Positions 26,512-35,991 of a DNA stretch of 64,000 nucleotides are shown in pieces. A model generated the notes under the pieces. The model had not been told where the DNA came from, made no database searches, and saw only the letters and a list, made by a program, of their open reading frames with translations. Source of the DNA: Bifidobacterium mellis. GTDB lineage: Bacteria > Actinomycetota > Actinomycetes > Actinomycetales > Bifidobacteriaceae. Within the stretch, counting starts at the first letter, position 1. Every line of letters starts with the position of its first letter. The DNA is taken from assembly GCF_000967265.1 (NCBI RefSeq), contig NZ_KQ033885.1, positions 62,001 through 126,000 on the forward strand. The letters run 5' to 3'. The position numbers and the translations under genes were made by a program.

Positions 26512-27894
26512 ATGGACAAGGCTTGGAGACCACCTATGGGGTGGAACAGCTGGGACAGCTACGGGACCACCGTCACCGAGCAGGAGGTGCTGGACAATGC
26601 GCAGGTCATGCACGACAGGCTGCTCCCGGTGGGCTGGGACACGGTTGTCATAGACATCGCCTGGTATGACCCGACCGCCAGGGCCCATGGCTACAACGCC
26701 AAGGCGCCCCTGGTCCTGGATGACTATGGTCGGCAGCTGCCCGACCCGGTCCGGTTCCCGTCGGCGGCCGACGGCCAGGGGTTCGCCCCGCTGGCCGCTC
26801 GGATCCACGATCTGGGATTGCGCTTCGGCATCCACGTCATGCGGGGCATCCCTCGGTTGGCGGTCGAGCGGAACCTGCCCGTCCCCGGCACCTCCTATAC
26901 AGCCGCCCAGGTGGCTGATACCACCCATGTCTGTGCGTGGAATCCCGACAATTACGGTCTGGACCAATCCCATCCGGGAGCCCAGGCCTGGTATGACGCC
27001 CAGGTCGACCAGTTCGCCCGATGGGGGGTTGATTACCTGAAAGTGGACGACATGCAGGCCCCCTTCATGGACCGTGAGATCGATGCCTATACCCGGGCCA
27101 TCCACAAGGCCGAGCAGGCCCATGGGCATTCCATGACCCTCTCCCTGTCCCCGGGCACCCGGGTGCCCACCACCCACCTTGGTTTCCTGCGGGATCACGC
27201 CCAGCTCTGGCGTATTTCGGACGACCTCTGGGATCGCTGGCAGGACCTTTACGCCCAGTTCGCCCGTCTGGCCCGCTGGGCTCCTCTGCAGAGCACAGGC
27301 CACTGGGCCGATGCGGACATGCTGCCACTGGGGCATATCGGACTGCGGGCCGAACGGGGCGGGGACCGGTCCAGCCTCCTGACGGCCGACGAGCAGCGCA
27401 CCATGCTGACCCTCTGGGCCATGGGGCGCTCGCCGCTGATGGTGGGCGGCGACCTTCCCAGCAGCGATGAGGCAACCCTGTCCCTGCTGGACAACCCGGC
27501 CCTGGAGGAGGTCACCGCCGGCTCGGCCGACAACGGTGAGATCATCCGGGAGCCGGTCGAGAGTGGGGATGGCCAAGGCAGGAAGGTCTCAGGCGAGGAG
27601 ATCGTCTGGAGGGCCCTGGCCAGCGACTGGGCCGACGGAACCCCCTCGGCCCATGCCGACGGGGTCTATGCGGCTGTCTTCTGGACCGGGGACCGCCCAC
27701 GGAGGGTCAGGACGGCCCTGTCCTCCCTGGTGGGCCTGGATGGGGCGGACGGAGCCTGGACCCCGGTCGACCTCTGGCGGGACCGGACCTCGGAGCCCGC
27801 CCGGATCAGCCTGGAAGGACAGGGTGCCGACCGGGAGCTGGTGGCTCTTGTGCCCGCACACGGCGTGGTCTGGGTGGCTCTGGATCCCCGCTGA
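26512..27894 (+). CDS. GH27 alpha-galactosidase or beta-L-arabinopyranosidase
   Basis: A 460-residue cytoplasmic GH27 enzyme. It opens with the family block PPMGWNSWDSYG, has the nucleophile in DYLKVDD (about 174-180) and the acid/base in RISDDLWDRW (about 234). The C-terminal antiparallel beta domain starts near 360. The ribosome site AAAGGAG is ideal. In GH27, alpha-galactosidase and beta-L-arabinopyranosidase differ in few residues; the setting among arabinan enzymes makes the second activity attractive, but this is inference. It shares an operon with the upstream GH43 and converges with the arabinanase gene six bases away. Confidence 0.9.
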   Translation: MDKAWRPPMGWNSWDSYGTTVTEQEVLDNAQVMHDRLLPVGWDTVVIDIAWYDPTARAHGYNAKAPLVLDDYGRQLPDPVRFPSAADGQGFAPLAARIHDLGLRFGIHVMRGIPRLAVERNLPVPGTSYTAAQVADTTHVCAWNPDNYGLDQSHPGAQAWYDAQVDQFARWGVDYLKVDDMQAPFMDREIDAYTRAIHKAEQAHGHSMTLSLSPGTRVPTTHLGFLRDHAQLWRISDDLWDRWQDLYAQFARLARWAPLQSTGHWADADMLPLGHIGLRAERGGDRSSLLTADEQRTMLTLWAMGRSPLMVGGDLPSSDEATLSLLDNPALEEVTAGSADNGEIIREPVESGDGQGRKVSGEEIVWRALASDWADGTPSAHADGVYAAVFWTGDRPRRVRTALSSLVGLDGADGAWTPVDLWRDRTSEPARISLEGQGADRELVALVPAHGVVWVALDPR

Positions 27895-27900
27895 GGCTGA

Positions 27901-29484
27901 TCAGCGCTTGGAGCCCCAGATGCACACGTTGTTGCCCAGGGCGCTGAAGGTCATGACCGTGCGGTGGTCCTTGTCCCTGGGCAGCCGGGCGAAGACGCCC
28001 TGGTAGGTGACGGTCCCGTCCTCCTCATTGAGGTCCATGGACAGCCGTCCCTGGTCGTCGACCTGCCAGTGGCCCTGGCGCGCTCCGGTCACCTGGCCGC
28101 CGGGCTCCAGGCGGATGTCCACGGCCTTGACCACGCCCCGGTATCGGGTGCTGTGAGTGTCGGTCACCTTGCGCGGTCCCTTGAAGAAGATGGTCGGATC
28201 ATGCTCCACCAACTCATAGGTGCCGGCCTCGTCCTTGGCGCTGTAAGGGCCTCCGGCCTTGGTGCCCAGATACTCATAGGGGGCGGCCACCAGCCAGCCG
28301 TCTGCGGTGGGCATCAACTGCCGGACCCGGATCTGATGCTCCTCCTTGCGGTCGGAGAACCTGGTGTGATAGACCACATAGTCCCGGCCGTCCTTGTCGT
28401 GCAGGGCCGTGTTCCCGCCCTGTGAGACCTCGATGTCGCCCTTCTTGTCCCCGCTCCACTGGTAGGAGCCCATAAGGCGGATGCCTGTCTCGCTGGTCCA
28501 GTTGTCGGCCTCGCCGCTGGTGGCGATGGCCGGGTTGCCCTGCTGGTCCAGGTAGGGGCCGGTGATGGAGTCCGAGCGGAACATCCGCATCTGGTAGCCC
28601 CCGGTCTGCACCAGCTTGCCGTAGGAGAGGAAGAGGTACCAGTGGCCGTTGGTGTGCAGCAGCGCCGATCCTTCGCCTGAGTTGCCGAAGCCTCCGGCGA
28701 GTTTGTGCCCGTAGTAGGCGTCGGACTGGTTGGCCTGGGTGGGGTAGGTGGTGGAGTAGTCGCGCAGGCCGGTCCTGGGGTCCAGGCGGATCATCCAGAT
28801 GCCGCCGAACCAGGAGCCGAAGCTCATCCACAGGCCCCCCTGCCCGTCATCCTTGACACAGGCGTCAATCGCATTGATACCCGTATCCGTGTAGGACTGA
28901 TAGCGGTCCAGCTCCGGGTCCGAGCCCAGCACCTTGGGAACGTCGGTGCTCATGTAGTTGGCCCGGGTGAAGCCGGAGTAGACCACCGGGCCCACATAAG
29001 TCCAGTCGCCGTCCACCCTGTCGGCGGTCAGCAGGACGATGACCGAACGATGCTCGGCCCCGTTCAGGCTCAGGTACATGCACCACTTCTTCATGGTGGC
29101 GTTGTAGTAGACGTCAGGCGCCCACATGTTGCCGGTCACGTCCGGATTGGAGGACTGCTTGGGCCAGTCCTTCCAGATCCGGGCAAAGATCTTCTTGTAA
29201 TCGCGGCTCAGGTTGTTGGTGAAGGGGGTCCAGTTGACCAGATCCGTGCTGCGGGCATAGGCCCGGTGCGAGCCGAAGACGTAGTAGCTCTTGCCGGAGC
29301 GGACCACGGAGGGGTCGTGTACCGAGACGCGCTTGGGCTCCTGGGTGGCGGCGGTTTTTGTGCCGCTGGTTGACGGCTGCTGGCTCGAGCAGGCGCCCAG
29401 GGCCCCTGTCAGCAGTACCGCCAGACCCGCCGTCAGGGCGGTCAGGGCCTTCATGGCCCGTCCGGTGCGTTTGGGTCTTCTCAT
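27901..29484 (-). CDS. Lipoprotein GH43 endo-arabinanase
   Basis: A 527-residue surface lipoprotein: a signal peptide with Arg/Lys start ends in LGAC, followed by a Ser/Gln/Thr-rich linker. The GH43 catalytic domain begins at VSVHDPSVV and contains YYVFGSHRAYARSTD, NMWAPDVYYN, and TDTGINAIDACV, features of arabinanases of the endo type. A C-terminal beta domain ends in NNVCIWGSKR. The start at 29484 has AGCGAGGA upstream; the open frame extends to 30006 without support. Residues encoded by 28670-28890 are identical to those of the LPxTG enzyme at 34753-34973. Its role is arabinan cleavage at the membrane surface. Confidence 0.88.
   Translation of the reverse strand: MRRPKRTGRAMKALTALTAGLAVLLTGALGACSSQQPSTSGTKTAATQEPKRVSVHDPSVVRSGKSYYVFGSHRAYARSTDLVNWTPFTNNLSRDYKKIFARIWKDWPKQSSNPDVTGNMWAPDVYYNATMKKWCMYLSLNGAEHRSVIVLLTADRVDGDWTYVGPVVYSGFTRANYMSTDVPKVLGSDPELDRYQSYTDTGINAIDACVKDDGQGGLWMSFGSWFGGIWMIRLDPRTGLRDYSTTYPTQANQSDAYYGHKLAGGFGNSGEGSALLHTNGHWYLFLSYGKLVQTGGYQMRMFRSDSITGPYLDQQGNPAIATSGEADNWTSETGIRLMGSYQWSGDKKGDIEVSQGGNTALHDKDGRDYVVYHTRFSDRKEEHQIRVRQLMPTADGWLVAAPYEYLGTKAGGPYSAKDEAGTYELVEHDPTIFFKGPRKVTDTHSTRYRGVVKAVDIRLEPGGQVTGARQGHWQVDDQGRLSMDLNEEDGTVTYQGVFARLPRDKDHRTVMTFSALGNNVCIWGSKR
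28670..28890 (-). repeat. 221-bp inverted repeat, left copy
   Basis: Matches 34753-34973 in inverted orientation over 221 bases with a single mismatch, well above the identity of the flanking gene parts. It encodes the segment from TDTGINAID to FGNSGEG of the arabinanase. A second inverted match of 109 bases with two mismatches joins 29058-29166 to 34468-34576. Confidence 0.95.
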
Positions 29485-29625
29485 GGTTCCTCGCTTTCCG
29501 TGGAGGCAGCCCGATCCACATCGATGACGACCCGCGGCGCATGGACGGCCTGGCGGCTCGGTACGGATGAGCGAACAGCCCGGCCTCATCCATGCGGGCA
29601 TCGGGCGTCGGGACTGATCTCCATG

Positions 29626-29652
29626 TATAATTTCTATCGTTAGAAACGATAG
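29626..29652 (+). promoter_or_regulatory. Promoter and overlapping double operator
   Basis: A perfect -10 TATAAT (29626-29631) runs into TTTCTATCGTTAGAAA (29631-29646), a near-palindrome of the island's operator family. Overlapping it is the longer exact palindrome CTATCGTTAGAAACGATAG (29634-29652). The site lies 43 bases before the large GH43 gene and between it and the divergent lipoprotein arabinanase, so it could control both. Confidence 0.7.
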
Positions 29653-29694
29653 TCGTCGGCGTTGAAGCCGGCAAGCCGGATGGAAGGAATCGTC

Positions 29695-31920
29695 ATGGGT
29701 GAGGATGCTCTGTACGGTGGACGAGAATCTGGGGATGGGGTTGCACTCATGTGCTACACCCGGCATCCCACTGATCGGCAGGAGGCCAACAACGAGGATG
29801 TCGCCCTGAGCATGCACCTGGCCCTGCGTTCGCGGGCGACCGGCCGTTGGGAGCCTCTGAACGGCGACTACGGCATCTTCTTCGCTGCGGCCGTGCCCAC
29901 CAAGGCGGTACCGGATAGTGCCCGTGGGGCCTGCACGGCCGGGGCCGCCCTGCCAGGTGAGGCGGTGCCGCAAGAGGGCGGGCATAATCCTGGACTGGAT
30001 GCTCACCAGGGCGAAGGCTCCAATACCGCTGCTGATGCCGACGACAATGTTGACGATGGCCAGGCTTCACAGGCGGCCCGGGAGCTGGCGGTCGTCCCAG
30101 GTCAGGATCTGATTCTCAAGAGTCTGATTGACCCATTCCTGTTGCCCCTGAGTGACGGCACCTTCGTCATTCTGGCCACCAGGACGGCCAGAGGGGGCCA
30201 GTCTGACGGCTCCCAGACCGACTCCTTCCTGACGGCTCTTTCGCCGGACCTGCTGACCTACCGACGCTTGCCGCAGGTCCATATCCTGGGCGCTCATGGG
30301 GTCCACCGGCCCAGGGCGCGTCTTCTGGACGACGGCCAGGGCTGCCGACTCTATTGGGACGACGACCGCGGGCGGCTGTGCACGGCCACGGTGGACGACC
30401 CGACGCAGATGGGCATGGTGGCCGACATGAAGGTCCTGGAGGATGACGATTCCCTGGCCCAGGGTGACCCCCTGCCCCTGGATCGCCGGCGCGCCCTGGA
30501 GGAGGACTGCGGCATGAAGGGCATTCTGGCCGGCAATGTGGTGCGGGTCAGCGCCGACTGCGAGCGTGGCCTGCTGGAACGGTTCGGGCGCATCTATAAC
30601 ACCGGCGTGCAGGTGGATCCCGTTCGGATCTCCCGGGGCGACGGCCTGGAGCCGGTCCGGCAGACCCAGGCACGGCTCCTCTACAGTGACGGGTCCACCG
30701 CCCTGCGTGGGGTGGATTGGGACCAGAGCCAGTTGGACAGTCTGACCAGCGACCTGGCCCAGGGTCGTCTGAATCCCGGAGAGACCAGGTTGATCGGCGG
30801 ACGGGTCCGGCAGACGGCCTACCCGGTCCCCTTCGCCCGGCAGCGGGCCGATCCCTCCATTTTCCGTTGGTCCTGGAGGGGGCAGCGCCTGTTCATGTTC
30901 ATCGCCACCGAGGATGCGGATGGCAACTGCGTCGACCCCTTGAACGGGCACACACACATGCCCCTGCGGGTGGCCGACACCATCGAGGGCCTGAGCGACC
31001 AGGCCGGTGGCCATGAAAAGGAGGTGGATCTGCTGCGCAGGGGTGATCGCAACAGCGAGGGCCGGGTCATGACCGGCTGCTTCTGGGCCCCGGAGATCCA
31101 CCTGATCGGCGGCAGGCTCTCCATCCTCTTCATGCCCTGCTTCGATGGTCCGCAGACCAACCCGGACGGGACCGCCAACGATCGGGCCGGAAAGCCGGAC
31201 ATGTGGACCGGCTGCTGCCACATCATGCAGCTGCGCCGCGACGACCAGGGCCGGGATCTGGACCCTCGCCGGCCTGAGAACTGGGACAGCCCCCGACCCA
31301 TCCTGCGGGCTGACGGCACCCCTCTCAACCCCATCCAGCGCATCAGCCTGGACATGACGGTGCTGCACGATACCGGCCGCTGGTATTACGCCTGGCAGCA
31401 GCTGGGCTCGGTCTGGATCGCCGCCTTTGATCCGGCCCGCCCCGACCGTCTGACCAGCACGCCACGCCAGATCATCGTCCCCGAGTTCGCCTGGGACAAC
31501 ATGATTGCCGAAGGGCCCAACGCCGTGGTCCATGACGGCCGGATCTTCCTCATCTATTCCGGCTCCCTGGTGGGCATCGACTACACCACCGGACTGGTGA
31601 CCGCACCGGCCGGAGTCGGGGCCGATCTATGCGATCCCGGCGTGTGGAAGAAGCTGGACTACCCATTACAGAAGTCCGGGAAGTACAATGGCCATTGGCA
31701 GCTGGGCACCGGCCACGGTATGTGGTCGCAGGACGAGGACGACACCATGATCTACGTCTTCCATAATGCCGAGCATGATCAGGACCGCTACCTTGGCCGC
31801 GACAGTCAGGTAAGGCGGGTACATTGGTCTGCTGAGGGGATGCCCGTATTGGATATGCAGACGGATGAGGAGCTCGACCCCACCCGCGCCACGGTAACCT
31901 TGGAGGTCAGGGTCTTATGA
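29695..31920 (+). CDS. Large GH43-family enzyme, intracellular
   Basis: A 741-residue protein without signal peptide. An N-terminal propeller-like part (GVALMCYTRHP, then NGDYGIFFAAA) is interrupted at about 65-125 by a low-complexity insert rich in Ala, Gly and Asp. The catalytic GH43 part includes ADPSIFRWSWRGQRLFMF, FWAPEIHLIGGRLSI and AEGPNAVVHDGR, giving the expected Asp and Glu positions. The start at 29695 has GGAAGGA six bases before; a frame from 29662 has none. It overlaps the LacI gene by four bases. It probably removes arabinose from branched oligosaccharides. Confidence 0.8.
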   Translation: MGEDALYGGRESGDGVALMCYTRHPTDRQEANNEDVALSMHLALRSRATGRWEPLNGDYGIFFAAAVPTKAVPDSARGACTAGAALPGEAVPQEGGHNPGLDAHQGEGSNTAADADDNVDDGQASQAARELAVVPGQDLILKSLIDPFLLPLSDGTFVILATRTARGGQSDGSQTDSFLTALSPDLLTYRRLPQVHILGAHGVHRPRARLLDDGQGCRLYWDDDRGRLCTATVDDPTQMGMVADMKVLEDDDSLAQGDPLPLDRRRALEEDCGMKGILAGNVVRVSADCERGLLERFGRIYNTGVQVDPVRISRGDGLEPVRQTQARLLYSDGSTALRGVDWDQSQLDSLTSDLAQGRLNPGETRLIGGRVRQTAYPVPFARQRADPSIFRWSWRGQRLFMFIATEDADGNCVDPLNGHTHMPLRVADTIEGLSDQAGGHEKEVDLLRRGDRNSEGRVMTGCFWAPEIHLIGGRLSILFMPCFDGPQTNPDGTANDRAGKPDMWTGCCHIMQLRRDDQGRDLDPRRPENWDSPRPILRADGTPLNPIQRISLDMTVLHDTGRWYYAWQQLGSVWIAAFDPARPDRLTSTPRQIIVPEFAWDNMIAEGPNAVVHDGRIFLIYSGSLVGIDYTTGLVTAPAGVGADLCDPGVWKKLDYPLQKSGKYNGHWQLGTGHGMWSQDEDDTMIYVFHNAEHDQDRYLGRDSQVRRVHWSAEGMPVLDMQTDEELDPTRATVTLEVRVL

Positions 31921-32999
31921 GTTTAGCCGCTTCCCCCGGCACGGGCCGTGGTTCCACCCCGACCATGAAGGATGTGGCCCAGGCTGCAGGAGTGTCGGTC
32001 AAGACCGTCTCCAACGTGGTCAATGACTACGAATTTGTCTCCGAAGCCACCAGGGGCAAGGTCAACAAGGCCATAGAGGAGCTGGGCTACCGGGTCAACG
32101 TGCCGGCCAGAAACCTGCGGCTGGGCTACACGGGAATGATCTCCCTGGCCATACCGGATCTGGCCATGCCCTACTTCGCCCAGCTCTCCTCCCTGGTCAT
32201 CGAGGAGGCCAAGAAGCTGGGCATGAGGGTGCTGGTGGAGCCCACCCTCTACTCGCGCGAGGGTGAAATCGAAGCCCTGCACGGTTCCCAGCGATCCATG
32301 ATCGACGGCCTCATCTACAGCCCGCTGGAGCTGGGCATGGACGACCTGGACCAGCTGCGGGTGGACTATCCCCTGGTGGTCGTGGGGGAGCGGATCTTCA
32401 GCGACCAATTCGATCATGTGGCCACGGAGAACGTGGAGGGTGCCAAGCACGCCACCGCCTATCTGATCAACACCGGTTGCCGTCGGGTGGCGGTCATCGG
32501 CACCCACCCCGGCGAGAAGCTGGGCTCGGCCGCTCTTCGCCTGGAGGGGTACAGACAGGGTCTTGAGGAGGCCGGCCTGGACTACGATCCCCGGCTGGTG
32601 GCACCATCGCGCATGTGGCACCGTATCGACGGGGTCAATGCCATGAACTCCCTGCTGGACCAGGGCATCGTCCCCGACGGTGTGGTGGCCCTGAACGACA
32701 TGCTGGCGGCAGGGGTTCTGCATTCCATACAAATGCACGGTATGTCCGTGCCGGACGACATCTCGGTCATCGGATTCGACAACTCGGACGATTCCCAGTA
32801 TCTGTCGCCCTCGCTGACCAGCATCTCGCCCGGGCTCAAGGCCGTGGCCAGGCTCTCGGTCCGTGTCCTCAAGGACAGGATCAATGGGGTGCAGCCGCTG
32901 AACATCAAGGAAGGCGAGCACGTCTTCCGCAAGGTGTCCTCCTCGCTGGTGGTCCGCAATTCAACCCGTGCCCTGCCCGGGAACGAGATCGCCGTCTGA
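31917..32999 (+). CDS. LacI-family repressor of the arabinan island
   Basis: A 360-residue regulator. The LacI helix-turn-helix MKDVAQAAGVSVKTVSNVVN lies at 17-36 with the hinge helix near VNVPARNLRLG, followed by a periplasmic-binding-protein-like effector domain ending around 340. Translation is coupled to the upstream GH43 gene by an ATGA overlap. Its own position amid repeated near-palindromes with central CG, the classic LacI operator form, makes it the likely regulator of the sites at 25345, 29631, 33038, 36070 and 37152-37200. The inducer is probably arabinose or an arabino-oligosaccharide. Confidence 0.9.
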   Translation: MSLAASPGTGRGSTPTMKDVAQAAGVSVKTVSNVVNDYEFVSEATRGKVNKAIEELGYRVNVPARNLRLGYTGMISLAIPDLAMPYFAQLSSLVIEEAKKLGMRVLVEPTLYSREGEIEALHGSQRSMIDGLIYSPLELGMDDLDQLRVDYPLVVVGERIFSDQFDHVATENVEGAKHATAYLINTGCRRVAVIGTHPGEKLGSAALRLEGYRQGLEEAGLDYDPRLVAPSRMWHRIDGVNAMNSLLDQGIVPDGVVALNDMLAAGVLHSIQMHGMSVPDDISVIGFDNSDDSQYLSPSLTSISPGLKAVARLSVRVLKDRINGVQPLNIKEGEHVFRKVSSSLVVRNSTRALPGNEIAV

Positions 33000-33037
33000 C
33001 TGCTGATGTTCTTTTCCGGGTGTTCCTGGTTTCTTGA

Positions 33038-33058
33038 TTTCTAACGTTGTAATATACT
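33038..33058 (+). promoter_or_regulatory. Operator overlapping promoter of the LPxTG arabinanase
   Basis: TTTCTAACGTTGTAAT (33038-33053) is a near-palindrome of the island family. It abuts a -10-like TATACT (33053-33058), so bound repressor would block polymerase. The gene starts about 100 bases later. Confidence 0.65.
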
Positions 33059-33156
33059 GAAGACGTTCTCGAATGATTCGAGGTGGCATCGGCGGACCAT
33101 GGAGGCCTGCCGGTCGGAGCGCGGTCGCTCCGATGCCGACATGGAAAGGTGTGAAC

Positions 33157-35991
33157 ATGCGTCATCAATCGTCATCAGGCGCAGGACGACGGAGCCGAGG
33201 AGGGGTTGCAGTGGCAGCCCTCGTGGGCATGATACTGGCGGGCGGCACAGTCGCATCCCCAGCCTGGGCGGATCAGTCCCAAACCGACGACAGCGCCACA
33301 ACCAGGATGTCGTCCAGTCAGCCGCAGCCCCTGCTCGGCTACGATTTTTCAGCCCTTGCTCCAGGAGCCAAGGAGGCAAACAATACCGTCTCAGGCTCAT
33401 CCTTCGGCCCGGCCCGCATCCTGGATGCCGATGGTCGGCCGACAGGGGCAGTCAAGACCGACGATGCGCTCCTGTTCGATGGATCGACCTATGTCAAGCT
33501 TCCTGATGACATACTGAGCGGACGCGCCAGCGCCACGGTCTCCATCCGCGTGCGCAACGACCGGTTCAACGCCTCAGGCCCCTGGACCTACCTCTGGTCG
33601 CTGGGGGGAACCGGCCAGCAGGCCGTCGGCTCCTGGACCGCCTCCACCCATACCTCCCTGTACACCTCCATCACTTCCAAGGCCAACGGCCAGGGCGAGA
33701 CCTATCTGCCGGCATCCAAGAACCTGCCCGATGACCGCTTCTCCACGTTGACCGCCACCATCGACGGCAGAAACAATATGGTCCGGCTCTATATCAACGG
33801 TCTACAGGTGGCTGAGGGCAAGGCTGCGGTCAATCCTGCCGCCTTTGGCGACCATCATCACAACGTAATCGGCCAGTCCCGATACCCCGGCATAGACGAT
33901 GCGCTCTTCCACGGCGCAGTGCAGTCATTCGCCGTTTATCCGCAGGCCCTGGATGCCGACCAGATCGTCGCCACCCTGCCTTCGGAGGACCTTGGGGATC
34001 TGATCGACCAGCAGGCCACATCCCTGGCGGTTCCCGCAGCCGTGGACGGTGATTTCGACCTGCCGGTCTCAACTACTGTCGCATCAGTGGGGTGGACCTC
34101 TTCGGCTCCTGGAACGGTCAGTGTCAATGCGGCCACCGGCAGGGCCCATGTGGTCCCCGGCAAGCGGGATATCCCAGTTACGCTGACGGCCCGGCTGCAG
34201 GCCAACAAGGTCTCGAGGTCATCCCGGGACGCTAAAGCCATCCAGCAGGACTACCGGCTTATTGTCAGGGGCACCTCCAGGGACGGTCAGAACGCCTACT
34301 CGCGTGTCTCCGTGCATGACCCTTCCGTGGTCAAGGCCGGAGGGCGCTACTACATCTTCGGCTCCCACCGGGCCTGGGCCCGCAGCACCGACCTCAAGCA
34401 TTGGGAGCCCTTCACCAACAATCTGAGCCGGGATTACCAGCGCATTCTGGATCCCATCTGGAAGGCATGGCCCAAGCAGTCCTCCAATCCGGACGTGACC
34501 GGCAACATGTGGGCGCCCGAGGTCTACTACAACGCCACCATGAAGAAGTGGTGCATGTACCTGAGCCTGAACGGGGGAGGATTCCCCTTCCAGAAGTCGG
34601 TCATCGTCCTGCTGACCGCCGACGACATCGAGGGGGACTGGAGCCTGGTGGGACCGGTGGTCTACTCCGGCTTCCAGGAGTCCAACGTGGCGGCCACCGA
34701 CGTGCCCAAGGTGCTGGGGCCCAATGCCGATCTGTCGCGCTATGCCAGCCTTACGGATACGGGTATCAATGCGATTGATGCCTGTGTCAAGGATGACGGG
34801 CAGGGGGGCCTGTGGATGAGCTTCGGCTCCTGGTTCGGCGGCATCTGGATGATCCGCCTGGACCCCAGGACCGGCCTGCGCGACTACTCCACCACCTACC
34901 CCACCCAGGCCAACCAGTCCGACGCCTACTACGGGCACAAACTCGCCGGAGGCTTCGGCAACTCAGGCGAAGGCACCGCCCTGGTCCATCAGGGCGACTG
35001 GTGGTATCTGATGCTTTCTTACGGCGGACTCGGGCAGACCGGGGGCTACCAGATGCGTGAATTCCGCTCCCGTTCCATCACCGGCCCCTACCTGGACCAG
35101 AACGGCAAGCCGGCCGTCTATGGGCGTGCAATGAATGATCTGGATGCCAACCGGGGCCTGCGGATCGACTCCTCCTTCGCCCAGCCCGGACAGGACCAGG
35201 TGCTGACCTCCCAGGGAGGCAACGCACTGTTGATTGACGAAGATCGGGTCTTCAACGTCTACCACACTCGCTTCGTGCGCGCCGAGGGCAACTTGGAGGA
35301 GCACCAGGTCCGGGTCAGGCAGATGGTACAGACCCCTGACGGCTGGTTGGTCATGACGCCCTTCGAATACCGGAATCCGGTGGGCAGGGTCTCCTCCAGC
35401 CAGGTGGTTGGCGACTACCAGGTGGTTGTCCATGACCCGGTCCATTACTATGCGGGATCCGGCCTGTCCAGCCCGGCCATCTACCGGTCGGCGTCAGTGA
35501 GTCTGCTGGCCGGCGGTCGGCTGGGCGGCCAGGTGCAGGGCTCCTGGACGGCGACCGCTGGCGGCCTGACCATCAAGGTGGACTCGGCGGATCCGGGCAC
35601 TCTGTTGCACGGCGTCTATCGGGCCAGGCTGGGCCGACAGCTTGATGAGCAGGGCCATCCGGTCGTTTTCTTCTCAGGGCTGGGTGGCGATGTCTTCACC
35701 GATGCCGGTGCCGATGTCTCCAAGGCAGCAGGTGCCGTAGCCATCTGGGGTTCGCGTCCCCTGACCGATGCCAAGGTTCAAGAGGAGGCCGATGGCGATG
35801 CCAATCATGCGACTGTTCCCACCGCGGACCCCACTCCTGCACCCGCAGATCGGTCCGGCAAGGAAGGCAAGGCCGGTCGCCTGCCCTTGACCGGATCGGC
35901 CCTGTCGGCTCCCGTCGCTGCCGCATCTGCGGCCCTTGTCCTGGGGCTGGGTGCACTGGTGTTCACCGCCATTCGCCGAGCCCGGGGCTGA
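33157..35991 (+). CDS. LPxTG-anchored multidomain GH43 arabinanase
   Basis: A 944-residue secreted, wall-anchored enzyme. In order: signal peptide (about 1-39, ends near AWA), a LamG/concanavalin-like domain (about 45-270), a bacterial Ig-like domain (about 275-370), a GH43 arabinanase domain from VSVHDPSVV (about 384) to 720, a C-terminal beta domain, a Pro/Ala/Asp linker, and a sorting signal with LPLTG (about 910), a hydrophobic helix and RRARG. The start at 33157 has GAAAGG upstream. The catalytic region closely matches the lipoprotein arabinanase at 27901-29484. It likely cuts arabinan at the cell wall. Confidence 0.92.
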   Translation: MRHQSSSGAGRRSRGGVAVAALVGMILAGGTVASPAWADQSQTDDSATTRMSSSQPQPLLGYDFSALAPGAKEANNTVSGSSFGPARILDADGRPTGAVKTDDALLFDGSTYVKLPDDILSGRASATVSIRVRNDRFNASGPWTYLWSLGGTGQQAVGSWTASTHTSLYTSITSKANGQGETYLPASKNLPDDRFSTLTATIDGRNNMVRLYINGLQVAEGKAAVNPAAFGDHHHNVIGQSRYPGIDDALFHGAVQSFAVYPQALDADQIVATLPSEDLGDLIDQQATSLAVPAAVDGDFDLPVSTTVASVGWTSSAPGTVSVNAATGRAHVVPGKRDIPVTLTARLQANKVSRSSRDAKAIQQDYRLIVRGTSRDGQNAYSRVSVHDPSVVKAGGRYYIFGSHRAWARSTDLKHWEPFTNNLSRDYQRILDPIWKAWPKQSSNPDVTGNMWAPEVYYNATMKKWCMYLSLNGGGFPFQKSVIVLLTADDIEGDWSLVGPVVYSGFQESNVAATDVPKVLGPNADLSRYASLTDTGINAIDACVKDDGQGGLWMSFGSWFGGIWMIRLDPRTGLRDYSTTYPTQANQSDAYYGHKLAGGFGNSGEGTALVHQGDWWYLMLSYGGLGQTGGYQMREFRSRSITGPYLDQNGKPAVYGRAMNDLDANRGLRIDSSFAQPGQDQVLTSQGGNALLIDEDRVFNVYHTRFVRAEGNLEEHQVRVRQMVQTPDGWLVMTPFEYRNPVGRVSSSQVVGDYQVVVHDPVHYYAGSGLSSPAIYRSASVSLLAGGRLGGQVQGSWTATAGGLTIKVDSADPGTLLHGVYRARLGRQLDEQGHPVVFFSGLGGDVFTDAGADVSKAAGAVAIWGSRPLTDAKVQEEADGDANHATVPTADPTPAPADRSGKEGKAGRLPLTGSALSAPVAAASAALVLGLGALVFTAIRRARG
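34753..34973 (+). repeat. 221-bp inverted repeat, right copy
   Basis: Inverted partner of 28670-28890 with one mismatch (T at 34779). It is inside the GH43 domain of the LPxTG arabinanase. The two copies are 5.9 kb apart and read in the same translation frame of the two enzymes. Confidence 0.95.

Follow-up and report, generated by a model that had tools for sequence, protein, structure and literature searches.

Gene conversion between tufA and tufB of Salmonella was reportedly treated by Hughes in 2000. In those parts of a later published account of this system that are used here, inversion accompanies nearly half of the conversions for which one site was selected, recA strains show greatly lowered conversion, and mismatch repair shortens the conversion tracts (PMC5485169). 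Long-lasting concerted evolution has been described in prokaryotes more widely, and the main text of that study, in which the words glycoside hydrolase and Bifidobacterium are absent, presents a set of genes of which 22 of 26 encode parts of stable complexes (PMC6053082, partial text). A different outcome of recombination between inverted repeats is seen in pneumococcal SpnIII/hsdS, which, in the sections of the source drawn on here, varies at rates >1%, independently of RecA and partly under the control of a recombinase in its own locus (PMC6620402). With respect to gene content, the closest described system is the arabinan cluster of Bifidobacterium longum subsp. suis, which according to the available part of its description has one secreted and one intracellular arabinanase (PMC10970622).

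The locus described here has features in common with each of these systems. Like tufA and tufB, its two GH43 genes, here called A and B, are inversely oriented paralogues on one chromosome that appear to be kept alike by conversion, a process that is RecA-dependent in tuf, and their identity stops at edges; unlike the tuf genes, which are alike over the whole 1185-nt gene, A and B are much diverged and are alike over 221 bp and, weakly, 109 bp, and unlike in tuf, no inversion is seen among the 8 genomes compared here (PMC5485169, in part). As in the published cases of long-lasting concerted evolution, paralogues of the same species are on average closer than orthologues, recurrently and at synonymous sites too, but here this concerns part of a gene rather than genes for parts of stable complexes (PMC6053082, partial text). 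The likeness to SpnIII/hsdS is that inverted repeats lie in coding genes, so placed that recombination would exchange protein parts; unlike SpnIII, our locus has no nearby recombinase of the two families searched and no inverted state among the genomes compared (PMC6620402, in the sections used). In common with the cluster of B. longum subsp. suis, as far as the source text available covers it, there are two GH43 endo-arabinanases with a C-terminal extra domain together with GH27, LacI and sugar ABC transport genes, but here the two enzymes are of lipoprotein type and sortase type, are encoded divergently and carry a probable conversion patch (PMC10970622). Within the titles and abstract openings of the literature searched, no conversion or inversion of arabinanase genes was found. 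The features of the locus, with positions in the window (the whole 64,000-nucleotide stretch of Bifidobacterium mellis DNA that was analysed), are these:

27901..29484, minus strand: gene A, predicted GH43 endo-arabinanase-like with a lipoprotein-type leader (from the open reading frame, Pfam, codon positions, relatives' open reading frames and the lipobox pattern).
28670..28890, minus strand: main probable conversion block, gene A copy; 221 bp, 73 whole codons, Asp codon at 28866 and Glu codon at 28674.
29058..29166, minus strand: second, weaker common block, gene A copy; 109 bp, 2 mismatches, weak sign of conversion.
29662..31920, plus strand: GH43 gene between the repeats, which inversion would flip.
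31917..32999, plus strand: LacI-family regulator between the repeats.
33073..35991, plus strand: gene B, predicted GH43 endo-arabinanase-like, with leader, Laminin_G_3, GH43_C, LPLTG at 35881 and hydrophobic tail.
34468..34576, plus strand: second common block, gene B copy; 109 bp.
34753..34973, plus strand: main probable conversion block, gene B copy; Asp codon at 34777 and Glu codon at 34969; probable founding donor.

Both proteins gave matches to PF04616 and PF16369 in the Pfam search, and on this evidence A and B are predicted to be GH43 endo-arabinanase-like proteins with a C-terminal domain. The best solved relatives of the B protein, with B as query, are 4kca, 4kc7, 5ho9, 5ho0 and 3lv4. 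The Asp and Glu of the block (B569 and B633) align with solved arabinanases, and we take them to be the GH43 catalytic helper Asp and the acid Glu. Gene A likely starts at 29484 (MRRPKR) or 29454 (MKALTAL), the mechanical open reading frame beginning at 30006; its leader ends in ...LTGALGAC, with the leader Cys codon at 29391, and its C-terminus has the GH43_C domain and is without a sortase-type tail. The B protein of the window has an LPxTG-like motif (LPLTG), a hydrophobic stretch and a basic tail. These results, together with Laminin_G_3 in B and the Pfam matches of the intervening genes, bear out the preliminary description, in which a lipoprotein signal was assigned to A, a LamG N-terminus and LPxTG C-terminus to B, and GH43 and LacI genes to the interval between the repeats. 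Among the 8 B proteins of the B. asteroides group, the sorting motif is LPLTG or LPSTG in 6 and LPSAG in 2; in the latter (L032 and L033), LPSAG replaces LPxTG and the hydrophobic stretch and tail are retained. The distant B proteins have the motifs LAKTG (L038), LAYTG (L039), LVKTG (L099), LPNTG (L101), LSHTG (L102), LAQSG (L103) and LTRTG (L105).

The main repeat pair, 28670-28890 against 34753-34973 read in reverse complement, has a single mismatch in 221 positions and a longest exact run of 194, and 29058-29166 differs from 34468-34576 at 2 of 109. The inverted repeat in two divergent genes and the accompanying 109-base block are therefore as previously noted, and so is their common reading frame, both copies of the main block beginning at codon position 1 (codons at 28890 and 34753). 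An inverted-repeat scan of the window returned the main block and its edge as a 236-nt arm pair (97%). Aligned segments of A and B without a block are 44-75% identical, and the two segments that hold a block are 84% and 89% identical. In the main block, A and B have the same amino acid at 73 of 73 positions and the same codon at 72 of them, while protein identity alone would give an expected 42.4 +/- 3.8 identical codons (from the codon usage of 9 other window genes; 200,000 simulations, maximum 59 identical codons). At identical residues outside the main block, codons match at 90 of 110 upstream, the 109-bp block included, and at 65 of 106 downstream. Measured against these simulated and empirical shares, the identity of the main block exceeds what chance or protein conservation would give. 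When the own genome was searched at the DNA level for a third copy of the block (40 of 72 candidates scored), the two known places alone came up, and a search of viral contigs with one 26-base stretch of the block gave 0 exact matches.

The own genome comprises 2.13 Mb in 6 contigs. The relatives at 91-97% identity are Bifidobacterium choladohabitans, B. polysaccharolyticum, B. asteroides VRA_9sq_n, sp. 7101 and sp. B4142, which places the window in the B. asteroides group, the habitat of which is the gut of bees. Within the genus, a protein search matched 11 of 27 genomes (E up to 1e-60); the family search matched in 39 of 189 genomes, and the 17 inspected are the 11 from the genus and 6 others. 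Orientation was compared by placing 13 window pieces on 9 stretches from 8 genomes. The locus is intact with both copies in seven genomes of the B. asteroides group, and these are the sample for the conversion tests. The 221-bp block, with nearly the same edges, is present in both genes in all seven, and the single-contig genomes G007 and G011 show the same block.

Over the 221 bp, A and B of the same genome differ at 1, 3, 1, 1, 4, 5 and 3 positions (mean 2.6, n=7), and the mean differences between genomes are 5.7 for A-A, 6.7 for B-B and 6.2 for A-B. The exact test, in which genome labels are permuted, gave 4 of 5040 for the main block; for the flanks it gave 3798 of 5040 downstream, where there is no signal, and 144 of 5040 upstream, where a weak signal sits in the 109-bp block (72 of 5040 when this block is taken alone). 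The signal is confined to tracts, the main one with common edges in all seven genomes, and the flanks behave independently. This is also seen at synonymous sites, with A-B dS in the block of 0.048 within genomes and 0.119 between genomes, and A-B dS within genomes of 0.54 and 1.25 in the flanks. Paralogues are closer than orthologues on average, but not for L030_A, L035_A, L034_A and L033_A: L030_A and L035_A are nearest each other (2 differences, vs 3 to the own mate), L034_A has 4 differences to L030_A and L035_A vs 5 to its own mate, and L033_A is nearest L032_B (3 vs 4 to its own mate). At codon 39 genome-mates agree in 7 of 7 cases: the two copies encode Arg in the own genome, Asn in L031 and Lys in each of the other five. 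Private variants common to both copies occur in four lineages (the own genome; L031; L034; and L032 with L033), and two residue changes in the block are found in one copy alone (L030_B and L035_A). The block tree joins genome-mates in L034 (94/94), L031 (93/90) and the four rows of L032 and L033 (90/89), in an analysis that had no starred branch and in which the bootstrap had not settled. Grouping of all A copies as one clade in the block is rejected (AU p 2e-42, two trees compared), and in the upstream-flank tree A stands apart from B at 100/100. Both neighbour-gene trees pair the own genome with L030 (100/99), a sister relation that suggests at least one exchange since the two diverged. Taken together, the genome-specific variants, the permutation result and the closer genome-mates argue for concerted evolution by gene conversion, a reading that the preliminary description had named as an alternative and that now has good support. 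We note that L033_A and L032_A have 4 differences in the 221-bp block, yet their 470-bp upstream flanks are identical, which hints at import of the L033_A block from elsewhere as well.

When A and B are compared without gaps, the block is bounded by mismatches at offsets -3, -2 and +222 in all seven genomes and at +221 in six of the seven, these being the outermost ones. The flanks adjoining the block are ~60-80% identical, and less so further downstream. The block of the group A protein resembles distant B proteins (mean 0.79 to 8 distant B vs 0.75 to 8 distant A), a small margin, and a few windows outside the block also fail to favour distant A; the other three A segments are nearer distant A (0.74 vs 0.57, 0.71 vs 0.64 and 0.68 vs 0.50). 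Directly after ID, all 8 distant A proteins have Pro and all 8 distant B proteins have Ala; both genes here encode Ala. This likeness of the A block to distant B implies that B was probably the donor, and A the recipient, of the founding copy. The first segment of B is at 0.70 to distant A vs 0.68 to distant B, which may reflect an older exchange. Scans of distant loci found no comparable island, the inverted arms being just 71-83% alike in L038, L039, L048, L049, L099, L100, L101 and L102 (L048 and L100 are the same place, as are L049 and L101), and in L040, L104 and L106 they gave no inverted pair at the length set.

It is very probable that the 221-bp copies are a gene-conversion patch, founded by a copy from B to A and later made equal again in several lineages by recombination of the RecA type. 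In an ancestral member of the B. asteroides group, gene B, of sortase type, would have passed a copy of its active-site stretch to its divergent lipoprotein paralogue A, and the copies would later have been re-equalised in several separate lineages through RecA-type homologous recombination between the inverted copies. Such copying would be non-reciprocal and would halt where the flanks diverge; as diverged flanks stop strand exchange, the edges of the patch would be expected to be nearly constant among the species compared. A RecA gene is present in the genome, and we infer that the process depends on RecA, ends without crossover and is limited at the edges by mismatch rejection. The preliminary description had seen no recombinase gene, with which the Pfam search agrees: within the window there is no match to PF00239 or PF00589. 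Genome-wide there is one match to PF00239, ~760 kb away, and there are two to PF00589, ~550 kb away in contig coordinates, so that for these two families the nearest candidate site-specific recombinase lies ~550 kb from the locus in the contig.

Relative to the outer genes, the N-halves of A and B point the same way in all seven intact loci, as do the GH43 and LacI genes, and in all eight genomes gene A is continuous from its N-half to its C-half. In the eighth genome, G010, gene B is divided over two contigs and gene A is complete. The contig ends match the A copy exactly over 55-59 bases (C7) and 40-59 bases (C2), which would be what a short-word assembler leaves at a near-repeat; we rejected this break as a sign of inversion, since the short exact overlaps and the complete gene A make an assembly limit the simpler reading. 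The divergent order of A, LacI and B is kept in 5 of 9 distant genomes (G002, G013, G051, G123 and G125), but in G051 without the middle GH43 gene. The other four are uninformative or differently built: B is missing from the stretch in G021, A and B sit on different contigs in G096 and G103, and G052 has a B-like pair in another arrangement, with A missing from the stretch. Among the five distant loci that keep this order, gene A of L039, L099 and L100 carries a flagged lipobox pattern, that of L101 is unflagged, and that of L038 shows a leader ...LLTGALAGC; in gene B, a sortase-type motif was flagged for L038, L039 and L101, L099 shows LVKTG, and L100 lacks the motif. In L100 (G125), gene B has no anchor at the end of its frame and the next GH43 frame downstream is short; frame breaks or sequencing errors may be the cause. 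At 5274-10502 of L102 (G052), a shorter B-like gene without a sortase-type tail lies head to head with a full B gene, which points against LacI and a downstream GH43 gene; the arms are 72-82% alike. A third GH43 paralogue with no evident signal peptide adjoins gene A in L038 (12948-14624) and L040 (4080-5594), a similar frame occurs in L039, and its position in the window is taken by a Melibiase_2 gene (26512-27894). This third paralogue of distant species may be the counterpart of the intracellular arabinanase of B. longum subsp. suis, to judge from the available part of its description (PMC10970622).

The preliminary description had proposed an island that inverts and thereby swaps anchors, and such a selected phase-variation switch, in which in-frame crossover would flip the N-halves, the GH43 gene and the LacI gene, would suit repeats that are inverted, in frame and identical over a 194-bp run, as well as the like geometry of tuf, where nearly one in two conversions at a selected site brings an inversion with it (PMC5485169, in part), and an assembly, G010, that breaks inside the repeats. 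The comparison among related genomes speaks otherwise. No inverted arrangement was found, and the constant orientation of the seven intact loci, the uninterrupted gene A in all eight genomes, the divergent order in five of the nine distant genomes, the fit of the G010 break to an assembly limit and the lack of PF00239 or PF00589 matches in the window make a switch of this kind very unlikely; as a fixed state, the invertible island is rejected on the orientation of the intact loci. A milder form is compatible with conversion and, although doubtful, deserves more weight, namely that inversion is a rare by-product of occasional crossovers, giving low-frequency inverted cells that are lost or flipped back. 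Because the copies are inverted, crossovers are physically possible, conversion is evident in four lineages, and the tuf precedent, by analogy and as far as the part of that account used here goes, makes rare inverted cells plausible (PMC5485169). Were half of the conversions inverting, four of them without a fixed inversion would have a ~6% chance, by an inference in which flips back are ignored, and this would point to removal of inverted cells. The patch is, however, far shorter than tuf (221 vs 1185 nt, the latter from the part of the source used), which may disfavour crossovers. The observation that none of the 8 genomes is inverted despite four converting lineages suggests, on few events, that inversions are rare or removed. 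We regard it as unlikely that conversion is coupled to real inversions, with a small minority of cells that carry anchor-swapped arabinanases and are kept rare by selection; if this is true, the minority would have the lipoprotein N-half joined to the sortase-type C-half and the reverse, and the locus would be a natural gauge of conversion versus crossover in bifidobacteria.

Likeness of the copies could also be sought without any recombination, through selection for the same protein or for a nucleic-acid signal, given that the block encodes a conserved GH43 stretch, identical at 73 of 73 residues between the two genes of the window, and that codon choice is biased, as the match at 90 of 110 identical residues upstream indicates. 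The synonymous sites disfavour this reading. Orthologue dS in the block (0.11 and 0.13) is just somewhat below that in the flanks (0.14-0.24), so that the block is free to change, and yet genome-mates match; both copies have genome-specific variants in common, and 72 of 73 block codons match vs 65 of 106 at identical residues downstream, which together leave selection alone extremely improbable. It is scarcely more credible that an assembler merged near-identical repeats to one consensus. The assembly of G010 does break at the repeats, and NODE names among the relatives' records suggest short-read assemblies, but each of the seven genomes retains 1-5 A-B differences, the two single-contig genomes agree, and all seven have the patch, with edges in common and with B-like protein sequence in A.

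Gene conversion between A and B, as read from these genomes, would be a natural case in which conversion is confined to a 221-bp catalytic-domain patch between otherwise widely diverged enzymes, with upkeep of the patch that continued while species separated. As such it appears to add to known concerted evolution by gene conversion, and it illustrates that in-frame inverted repeats can signal copying rather than flipping. As the copies are both inverted and in frame, every crossover would yield an anchor-swapped pair, and the locus could therefore measure how often bacterial conversion resolves as inversion.
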